From positions 1 to 64,000 of the forward strand of contig RPFO01000256.1 of the NCBI GenBank assembly GCA_009746045.1: a stretch of 64,000 bases of DNA, read 5' to 3'. Each line of letters opens with the position of its first letter. Position 1 is the stretch's first letter. Made by a program: the position numbers and the translations under genes. This document shows positions 12,745-42,898 of the stretch, in pieces. This stretch comes from Mesostigma viride (lineage: Eukaryota > Streptophyta > Mesostigmatophyceae > Mesostigmatales > Mesostigmataceae). The notes under the pieces are model-generated. The model did not search any database. It was not told the origin of the DNA and worked only from the letters and a program-made list of their open reading frames with translations.

Positions 12745-15700
12745 CTTTCATGCGCTCAAACGCCTGCAGCAGCTGTGGGGTCGCCGGTTCCTTGGTCGCT
12801 CGGTCCTTGACGAGCTCCACCCCCAGCATCAGGCCGTCGCCACGCACGTCGCCGATGACTGGTGCGTGGAAACAGGGACAGGTGACAGCAGCACAAGGTT
12901 GTAAGGGGTCAGGAGGGGGCTCAAAAGGGAAGGGAAGGGAAGGGAAGGGGAGGGGAGGGGAGGGAGGGGAGGGAGGGGGGGAGGGGAGGGGAGGGGAGGG
13001 AGGGGAGGGGAGGGAGGGGAGGGAGGGGAGGGAGGAGGGAGGGAGGGGAGGGGAGGGGAGGGGAGGGGGAGGGGAGGGGAGGGGAGGGGAGGGGAGGGGA
13101 GGGGAGGGGAGGGGAGGGGAGGGGAGGGGAGGGAGGGGAGGGAGGGGAGGGGAGGGGAGGGGAGGGGAGGTTAGGGGAGGGAGGTTAGGGGAGGGGAGGG
13201 GAGGGGAGGGGAGGGAGGGGAGGGAGGGAGGGGAGGGAGGGGAGGGAGGGGAGGGGAGGGGAGGGGAGGGGAGGGAGGGAGGGGAGGGGAGGGGAGGGGA
13301 GGGGAGGGGAGGGAGGGGAGGGAGGGGAGGGGAGGGGAGGGAGGGGAGGGGAGGGGAGGGAGGGGAGGGGAGGGAGGGGAGGGAGGGGAGGGGAGGTTAG
13401 GGGAGGGGAGGGGAGGGGAGGGAGGGAGAGGGAGGGAGGGGAGGGGAGGGAGGGAGGGGAGGGGAGGGGAGGGGAGGGAGGGGAGGGAGGGGAGGGAGAG
13501 GGAGGGGAGGGGAGGGGAGGGGAGGGGAGGGAAGGGAAGGGAAGGAAAGTACATAGAAAGTAGAAGGAAAGTGGAAGGAAAGTGGAAGGAAAGTGGAAGG
13601 AAAGTGGAAGGAAAGTGGAAGGAAAGTGGAAGGAAAGTGGAAGGAAAGTGGAAGGAAAGTGGAAGGAAAGTGGAAGGAAAGAAGAAGGCAAGTGGAAGGT
13701 AAGTGGAAGGAAAGATGGGAAATGGAGTAGAAATGGGGAATGGAAAGAAAGATCGAGGTAAAGATGGAAGAAATGTGAAAGAACGATGGAAGAAAGATGG
13801 AAGAAAGATGGAAGAGAGGTGGAAGAAAATGGGAAGAAGATGGAGAGAGCATGGGCCAGCTGCGAAAGGAGGAAACCAGTGGACAGGCAGAGATTAGTGG
13901 CTGGCGACTGCATGGATCTTCAAAAGTACATGCTCCTCTCCCAAAAATGTTGCAGGATAGAGAAGGCAGATGTAGCACCAACCCGCGGAGAAAATCTTTT
14001 CCTTTGCCTACTAGACGCACGGTGTTCGTCGCGAAAGCTCATCTCATTAGCTTTGCTGGGCCAGCAGTTCTTGTTACGGTGGCAGTGATCTAGTTACGGT
14101 GGCAGTGTTCCAGTTACGGTGGCAGTGATCTAGTTACGGTGGCAGTGTTCTGGTTACGGTGGCAGTGTTCTGGTTACGGTGGCAGTGTTCTAGTTACGGC
14201 GGCAGTGTTCTGGTTACGGTGGCAGTGTTCTAGTTACGGCGGCAGTGTTCTAGTTACGGTGGCAGTGTTCTAGTTATGGTGGCAGTGTTCTAGTTACGGT
14301 GGCAGTGTTCTTGTTACGGTGGCAGTGTTCCAGTTACGGTGGCAGTTCTACTTACAGTAGGAGCGTTCTAGTTACAGTAGCAGTGAAGAGGGTGGTGATG
14401 CCAGCAGCTACAGGGGGCGGCGCAGAGGATGCCAGCAGCTACAGGGGGCAGCGCTGGCGAAGAAACTACCACTTGTGCATCTACTAACGATTCCATCACA
14501 TAAGTAATGATGATAGTAGACGTGACAATGCTGACGAAGACTTATTGAAACGCAGAGACGGAACACAAGTTACAAATCGTAAATGCATTTGCTGTTGCTT
14601 TCTCCCTCACGTACTCGAGTGCTTCTGCTGCAGCCGGAGAAGCTCCGACTTGAGATGAGCGCCCACTTTGAGGCAGTTGGCCTGCACACACACAATACAG
14701 ACACACAACAAGGGCACACACACACACACACACACACACATGCGCACACACACACACACAGATACACAAATTGCCAAGCCAGCAGATTGCTGACGCATGC
14801 CTTGAGTTTTTTCCACCTCAAAGGTAAACTGGTGTGATAACAGGGTGGCAGCTCAAAACCTTGAGACCACTTCACTGAGTGAAAGCCCTCAAGCCCTTGA
14901 GACCACTTCACCAAAAGGAAGCCCTCAGCCTCCAAACCAAGTCAAGCTAGTCATGTTATGCTGCAGCCCATCACAACATCGCTTGGGGAAATAATTATTA
15001 TTTCCTGCGCGGCAAGTCTAGTTTCTTACGGTCTCTCATGCTATGGTATTAATTAATTAATTAATTAATTAATTGATTAATTAATTAAGTAGGAACATAA
15101 CTCCGTTGGGAGTATATGTAGCACATATCCCAGAGAAGGGGCATATGGCTTTTAATACATTCTAAGCTATTTCCTGCAAGGGTGGGAATGTAAGCAACCC
15201 TTGCTCTAGGTGCACCAAGGGCACCTGCACCCCCCAGAGTCTCAAGCTCAACCCAACTAAGGGGAGCCTGTCATGGGGGGGGAAGATCATCAGGGCTATA
15301 CAAGAGCTAGAGCGTGGCATCTCAGCAGAGAGCAGCTCTCTGCATGGGCACAGCATAACTAGATGATGCCTAGCTAGGCATCATCTGGAGTGTGGCACAT
15401 CATAGGCACACATGCACATGCTATGGTATAGCTAGTTGTAATAGGCGACTTGGCTTGTAGACCACGAGGGTCTGCAGGTGGATGGTGGGATAATCGTAGT
15501 ATTGCTTCGTATTGCTTTTGGTTGCCTTGTGCAGTGTATGGCGTGGACTGAGAGGGGCTGCCAGTATCACCAATTACTAGTGTGCTGTATGAGGGGCTGC
15601 AGGTGATTGGAGGAGGACCATTTCTATTTTGCGTTCCGTAAAATGACAGAACATTTTACTAGGTGGTTGGCCTTGGGACGGCATGTGGTAGGTCAAGATG

Positions 15701-42898: not shown

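Follow-up and report, generated by a model that had tools for sequence, protein, structure and literature searches.

Genes at the locus

The window analysed here is a stretch of 64,000 nucleotides (G000:C1646:1-64000) of the Mesostigma genome, whose assembly comprises 439.9 Mb in 2243 contigs. It contains three genes, A, B and C, which were modelled by hand and together hold 17 introns and 34 splice junctions. All 17 introns begin with GT and end with AG, and the reading frames join throughout. The mean intron length is given as 1141.9 bp in the genome paper, which describes strain NIES-296 (PMC6947507).

Gene A (12738-23828, minus strand) encodes a class-III aminotransferase in eight modelled exons, which in plus-strand coordinates lie at 23577-23828, 22065-22295, 20394-20564, 18852-18998, 17767-17946, 16090-16248, 14615-14681 and 12738-12858. 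Its protein matches the Aminotran_3 domain with an E value of 7.4e-85, and residues 67-440 align with a solved aminotransferase (PDB 6tor_A) across the exon joins. The 3' end is provisional: a donor near 12745 is the probable end of exon 8, and the downstream remainder of the gene was not found. Gene B (24615-27695, plus strand; exons 24615-24787, 24954-25063, 25444-25622 and 26562-27695) encodes a protein with an RRM and a CCCH zinc finger, which we take to be RBMX2-like. Gene C (31153-42898, plus strand) encodes a methyltransferase in eight exons located at 31153-31431, 32131-32198, 36286-36433, 37363-37443, 38660-38746, 39953-40038, 41179-41299 and 42824-42898. Across 92% of its length the encoded protein shows 100% identity to the Mesostigma protein P0001 (EukProt label Mesvir1). 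The two agree up to the end of exon 7, where P0001 runs through the donor of intron 7 (window 41300-41400) and continues into the intron, which implies that the P0001 model misses the last exon. A dispersed element of nearly the same sequence (AACATAACTCCGTTGGGAGTATATGTAGCACATA...) was recognised by eye three times in the window, near 15090-15150, 44565-44620 and 56236-56300, and the first of these copies sits in intron 6 of gene A.

Copies of splice junctions inside their own introns

The first-pass annotation had described diverged copies of splice junctions within the adjoining introns of these three genes, hereafter called echoes, as mostly of the same orientation, serial, and present at donors and acceptors, and this description holds. 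Each junction was represented by 50 exon and 6 intron bases and aligned to its own intron, with the junctions of other genes aligned to the same intron as the null. In direct orientation the own junction outscores every other-gene junction in 14/34 cases, while in inverted orientation it outscores all controls in 2/34, where about 1.5 would be expected by rank alone. At a score of at least 26, 12/34 junctions have a match in their own intron, against 0.14 predicted from dinucleotide shuffles, and 13/34 exceed all of the 50 dinucleotide shuffles made of each intron. The signal survives comparison both with the junctions of other genes and with shuffled introns, which excludes chance or the shared splice consensus as its source and confirms that the echoes are real.

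When low complexity is masked, 22 echoes remain at 12 junctions of the window (5/14 in gene A, 1/6 in gene B and 6/14 in gene C), and both donors and acceptors are affected. Most window echoes are diverged by 10-25%. With whole exons as queries (score of at least 26, low complexity unmasked), 28 of 30 matches reach the splice junction. Of the two exceptions, one is inverted and begins 2 bases into the exon, and the other matches 17 bases and lies 5' of gene C.

The clearest case is the donor of gene C exon 3 (junction 36433), which is followed on the plus strand by four serial echoes at 36522-36573, 36649-36675, 36749-36792 and 36931-36967, three of them in the masked list; the first matches the junction at 46 of 52 bases. 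The acceptor of the same exon (junction 36286) has a near echo at 36179-36211 and a distant one at 32537-32569, both on the plus strand and both in the masked list. The distant copy lies directly 5' of a 39-bp satellite of 84 copies in intron 2 (window 32586-35877), which starts 16 bases past it; the near copy comes after the satellite. Further plus-strand echoes in gene C belong to the acceptor of exon 4 (junction 37363; 37283-37312, 26/30 bases), the donor of exon 4 (junction 37443; 37489-37509), the donor of exon 5 (junction 38746; 39021-39040 and 39296-39318) and the acceptor of exon 8 (junction 42824; 42721-42751, 27/31 bases), and at the last three of these the intron flank is homologous as well; the masked list contains all of them. 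Gene B has two plus-strand echoes of the donor of exon 3 (junction 25622) at 25792-25832 and 25908-25942, both in the masked list.

The direct echoes of gene A lie on the minus strand like the gene itself. Three copies of the donor of exon 5 (junction 17767) at 17683-17721, 17576-17615 and 17497-17538 form a degenerate array with homologous intron flank. Homology of the flank is also seen for the two echoes of the acceptor of exon 3 (junction 20564; 20916-20936 and 21014-21032) and the two of the acceptor of exon 4 (junction 18998; 19324-19357 and 19491-19527). The masked list further includes an echo of the donor of exon 3 (junction 20394; 20097-20117) and two direct echoes of the donor of exon 6 (junction 16090; 16005-16027 and 15912-15934). 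A weak echo of the acceptor of exon 2 (junction 22295; 22449-22474, 21/26 bases) and a short possible one of the donor of exon 4 (junction 18852; 18573-18589) are absent from it. The donor of exon 6 is also copied in inverted orientation, on the plus strand, at 15798-15829, 15591-15604, 15543-15561 (the match that begins 2 bases into the exon) and 15457-15479, and a weak inverted copy with a score of 24 occurs at the donor of exon 3.

Echoes in chaperonin genes

Confinement of the echoes to the window had been raised as a concern, and it does not hold: repeating the test on nine further genes, which lie on eight other contigs, again gives a positive result. These genes come from a Pfam search of this genome for chaperonins, which gave 58 matches; the analysis covered ten gene regions together with one near-duplicate. 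The first set consists of 40 introns in nine genes on eight contigs. Their boundaries were placed with peptide anchors and GT-AG phase, ab initio predictions for these regions being too noisy to serve as the basis of intron models. Eleven introns, including those of a tenth gene, were added later, and results are given for both 40 and 51 introns since the later 11 were not fully blind: an echo in one locus (L022) had been seen before its introns were added. The acceptor of the intron at 5107 in L014 was set by hand at 6046, and the ambiguous acceptor of the intron at 401-784 in L021 was omitted from the 51-intron and adjoining-intron comparisons. Outside CCT3, the chaperonin junctions were deduced from anchors, splice phase and general knowledge of the family rather than from transcripts.

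Four of the 80 junctions in the first set were left out as low complexity. Of the remaining 76, 13 have direct echoes at a score of at least 24, against 1.0 expected, and inverted echoes at that score were found at none of the 76. Echoes therefore occur in many genes beyond A, B and C. As the choice of the chaperonin genes took no account of echoes, their rate, roughly one in six junctions, is to be preferred as an estimate; the genes of the window are richer.

Tandem structure of the echoes

A young case is an intron of CCT3 (L016 4082-4568), in which a 48-bp unit is repeated 10.1 times with copies 97% alike. The array opens 31 bases inside the exon, and each unit is composed of 31 exon bases and 17 intron bases, the latter starting at the donor. 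The nine intronic copies have two differences from the exon copy in common, which shows that the array has been homogenised without the exon copy. At 100% identity over 99%, the protein of this gene model agrees with the independent protein P0121 (label Mesvir1), in which all six exon joins of the model recur. Together with the match of gene C to P0001, this makes Mesostigma viride the very probable source of the DNA. The unit corresponds to 16 codons, and the open frame continues uninterrupted across the ten copies, so that splicing at any later donor in the array would preserve the reading frame. With ten near-identical donors in ten near-identical exon contexts, this intron could serve as a natural experiment on how the first of many equal sites is chosen by the spliceosome.

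Across a survey of 114 junctions in 57 introns of 12 genes, in which at most eight echoes were counted per junction, 25 junctions carry 50 echoes. The distance from the junction to its nearest echo is 31-133 bp in 19 of the 25 and 202-447 bp in the other six. In 12 of the 25 the intron flank past the junction matches the flank past the echo above all controls, where about one such case is expected, and in the remaining 13 the flank does no better than all controls. The homologous flanks point to tandem duplication of a segment running from exon into intron, a structure displayed by the young array of CCT3 and by roughly half of the older cases.

The GT or AG of the copied junction is kept in 41 of 50 echoes (GT in 28/36 at donors, AG in 13/14 at acceptors), a figure that is inflated by the six intron bases in the search core. 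With these dinucleotides the echoes seed potential decoy splice sites, as the first-pass annotation had suggested. That the duplication process is recent follows from two contigs, C887 and C1641 (loci L021 and L023), which are either alleles or paralogues and share a stretch of a chaperonin gene with 97.8% identity; one of them has an extra 3.1 kb. Three indels of at least 8 bp separate them in about 4.2 kb of alignment, and two of these are tandem duplications, of 18 and 43 bp, neither of which was seen at a junction.

Junctions compared with intron interiors

Direct local copies are not restricted to junctions. At a score of at least 24 they are found in 126/684 deep intron windows of the genes A, B and C and in 222/1151 of the chaperonin genes, while inverted copies occur in 18 and 11 windows, respectively. 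In one-sided comparisons the junctions exceed the deep windows: 16/71 against 228/1857 in the 40 chaperonin introns (P 0.017, about 1.8-fold), 22/88 against 253/2259 in the 51 introns (bootstrap ratio 2.27, 95% interval 1.29-4.08) and 13/32 against 143/1193 in the genes of the window. The excess over the adjoining intron is not significant for the chaperonin genes (22/88 against 74/414, P 0.14), and it becomes so once the window genes, whose echoes were the reason for choosing them, are added (35/120 against 91/550, P 0.003). All of these P values, and those for the donor side below, are optimistic since the windows overlap.

The chaperonin genes further show an excess on the donor side, both at the junction (18/49 donor against 4/39 acceptor windows, P 0.006) and in the adjoining intron (55/228 on the 5' side against 19/186 on the 3' side, P 0.0003). 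This bias is not seen in the window genes alone (8/17 against 5/15, P 0.49). Both groups together give 26/66 donor and 9/54 acceptor junction windows at a score of at least 24, with low complexity having removed more acceptor than donor windows. The donor excess of the chaperonin genes amounts to a prediction for broader surveys and for RNA data.

When tandem duplication is simulated as uniform next to a conserved exon, echoes arise at 8.5-16.9% of junctions and local copies in 6.5-14.9% of deep windows, a ratio of about 1.1-1.3, so that the observed ratio represents a junction excess over the simplest model. In a two-sided simulation the junctions fall below the deep intron, whereas in the data they are level with it or above. 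The reach of echoes into the exon is shorter than simulated, with 4/101 windows positive at -60 to -20 against about 8%. We read these results as a general duplication process that is more active towards the 5' end of introns and is probably trimmed by selection against copies that could compete as exons.

Introns compared with intergenic DNA

At a score of at least 28, about 16% of intron windows at the locus have a direct local copy, compared with 0-3.5% of windows in intergenic stretches. Once arrays of five or more copies are removed, 10.4% and 9.2% remain in the two intron sets, compared with 1.6% in the window's intergenic stretches. However, nine random pieces of other contigs, some of them perhaps genic, range from 0 to 17.7% under the same filter and score, and given this spread an enrichment of local duplication in introns over intergenic DNA is suggestive only and is not claimed as settled. 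The region at 46-63 kb served as presumed intergenic DNA; a Pfam search with ten long open frames from it gave no match. Two other parts of the window have a repeat structure of their own: a 40-bp satellite of 298 copies (97%) fills positions 1-12078, and the stretch between genes B and C (27696-31152) is a large imperfect inverted repeat in which 21.6% of windows have an inverted local copy.

Origin of the echoes

Our preferred explanation, to which we assign a probability of roughly 0.8, is that the junction echoes are the readable edge of a general and repeated tandem duplication of short stretches of intron DNA. Units of about 30-130 bp would be duplicated in tandem within introns over and over in the manner of minisatellites, presumably through replication slippage or unequal exchange. 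On occasion the duplicated segment would take in the exon edge, extending from exon into intron or from intron into exon. Whichever copy adjoins the body of the exon would then remain the working junction, and the other, carrying 15-50 exon bases and the GT or AG, would become intronic, with further rounds yielding serial echoes. Point mutation would erode the echoes while selection holds the exon constant, and for this reason copies of boundaries would stay recognisable. The outcome would be growth of the intron and a supply of possible decoy splice sites, the copies themselves probably being neutral and ignored by splicing. Several observations count against so general a process: the junction rates above those of the one-sided and two-sided simulations, the short reach of echoes into the exon, the 13/25 junctions whose intron flank does no better than all controls, and the inverted copies at the donor of gene A exon 6, which are not tandem duplications. 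The proposal of the first-pass annotation that the echoes represent a mechanism of intron growth is accordingly retained in part: the copies do lengthen introns, but the idea of an unprecedented copying process that singles out boundaries is not supported, as direct duplication occurs all along the introns.

The observations that trouble the general process are largely those that would favour duplication directed at the junction, in which the exon-intron edge, chiefly the 5' end of the intron, triggers copying, for example through R-loops at G-rich donors or microhomology of GTGGGT-like sites. The 1.8- to 2.3-fold excess over the deep intron, the stronger donor side of the chaperonin genes at the junction and beside it, and the short reach of echoes into the exon would all fit such a trigger. 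We nevertheless consider it unlikely, because the chaperonin junctions do not significantly exceed the adjoining intron, the donor bias is absent from the window genes alone, and the deep intron is diluted by other insertions, with repeats occupying 30.1% of intron space according to the genome paper (PMC6947507); the overlap of the windows and the greater loss of acceptor windows to low complexity weaken the statistics as well. A related and tentative idea, doubtful on present evidence, is an intron-specific form of growth in which tandem duplication is focused on the intron 5' end and exon edge and exceeds its frequency in the window's intergenic DNA severalfold. Transcription-linked DNA structures would perhaps drive it, and splicing would keep it within bounds, as extra downstream donors may be better tolerated than extra upstream acceptors.

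Selection might instead keep the echoes as functional decoys or alternative exons, to which the GT or AG in 41/50 of them and the open frame through all ten copies of the CCT3 unit, where a later donor would keep the frame, lend some appeal. This is very unlikely, since the dinucleotide count is inflated by the search core and most echoes are diverged, and since P0001 and P0121 use the true junctions at six comparable joins each, although P0001 continues into intron 7. An introner or other mobile element bearing splice sites would also leave repeats that contain such sites within the introns of genes unrelated to one another, but it is highly improbable here: for 12/12 echo-bearing junctions of the window the score in the own intron (27-72) stands above the best found anywhere else in the window (20-29). 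Assemblers do fail at tandem repeats, and the unit counts of young arrays may be wrong through mis-resolved long-read repeats. As the source of the echoes at large, assembly error is scarcely credible, because the 10-25% divergence of most window echoes is not a product of assembly and nine genes on eight other contigs show the same pattern.

Relation to known systems

The first-pass annotation held that no known model covers the repeated copying of existing boundaries. In this it was mistaken, as the 'mirages' of amphioxus are described as minisatellite-like tandem duplications of exon-intron boundaries in Adh3, globin, troponin C and PGBD5 (PMC3087553, PMC3902484). They affect both 5' and 3' boundaries, have units of 10-160 bp and keep AG or GT in many but not all copies; the edge copy escapes homogenisation, and degenerate repeats are found within the introns (PMC3087553, PMC3902484). 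The echoes share each of these properties. Their unit spans the boundary, as in the 48-bp array of CCT3 and the 12/25 junctions with homologous flanks, and donors and acceptors are both affected. The nearest echo falls within a comparable distance in 19/25 cases, the six others lying further away. GT or AG is kept in many echoes rather than all, the edge copy of CCT3 is excluded from homogenisation, and degenerate repeats occur in the introns. Mirages also vary in length between haplotypes and leave regular splicing undisturbed; the observations that bear on these two traits here are the two tandem duplications that separate C887 from C1641, neither of them seen at a junction, and the protein models P0001 and P0121. 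In contrast to amphioxus, the present case concerns a green alga, in which 25/114 junctions in 12 genes carry mostly worn echoes, in introns with many other direct duplications and with a donor-side bias in the chaperonin genes. What is new here is the lineage and the extent of the boundary duplications, the phenomenon itself being known; a search of the open-access literature with narrow terms showed, among the records listed, no report of boundary-spanning tandem duplications in algae or plants.

Boundary-spanning minisatellites are no oddity of amphioxus, since they occur, both young and worn, in many genes of an alga that has long introns and branches deep among the relatives of land plants. 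The echoes also provide a legible record of intron lengthening, because the conserved exon keeps the original of each copied edge.

Other systems resemble the echoes in part. In the model of Rogers, as cited in PMC3087553, introns are gained through tandem duplication of an AGGT-containing exon, and the start of such an intron would resemble the exon that follows it. Tandem duplication involving splice-site sequence is common to both, but in the cases displayed here the copies continue from the exon into an existing intron and probably no new intron arises. Introners are repeated, near-identical sequences with splice sites that are dispersed in many introns. The echoes too are repeated sequences with splice sites in introns, but within the window each resembles its own junction only. 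Ordinary intronic minisatellites consist of direct serial copies that likely arise by slippage or unequal exchange. Unit size, orientation and serial arrangement are shared with them, whereas the unit of the echoes includes the end of an exon and its splice site.
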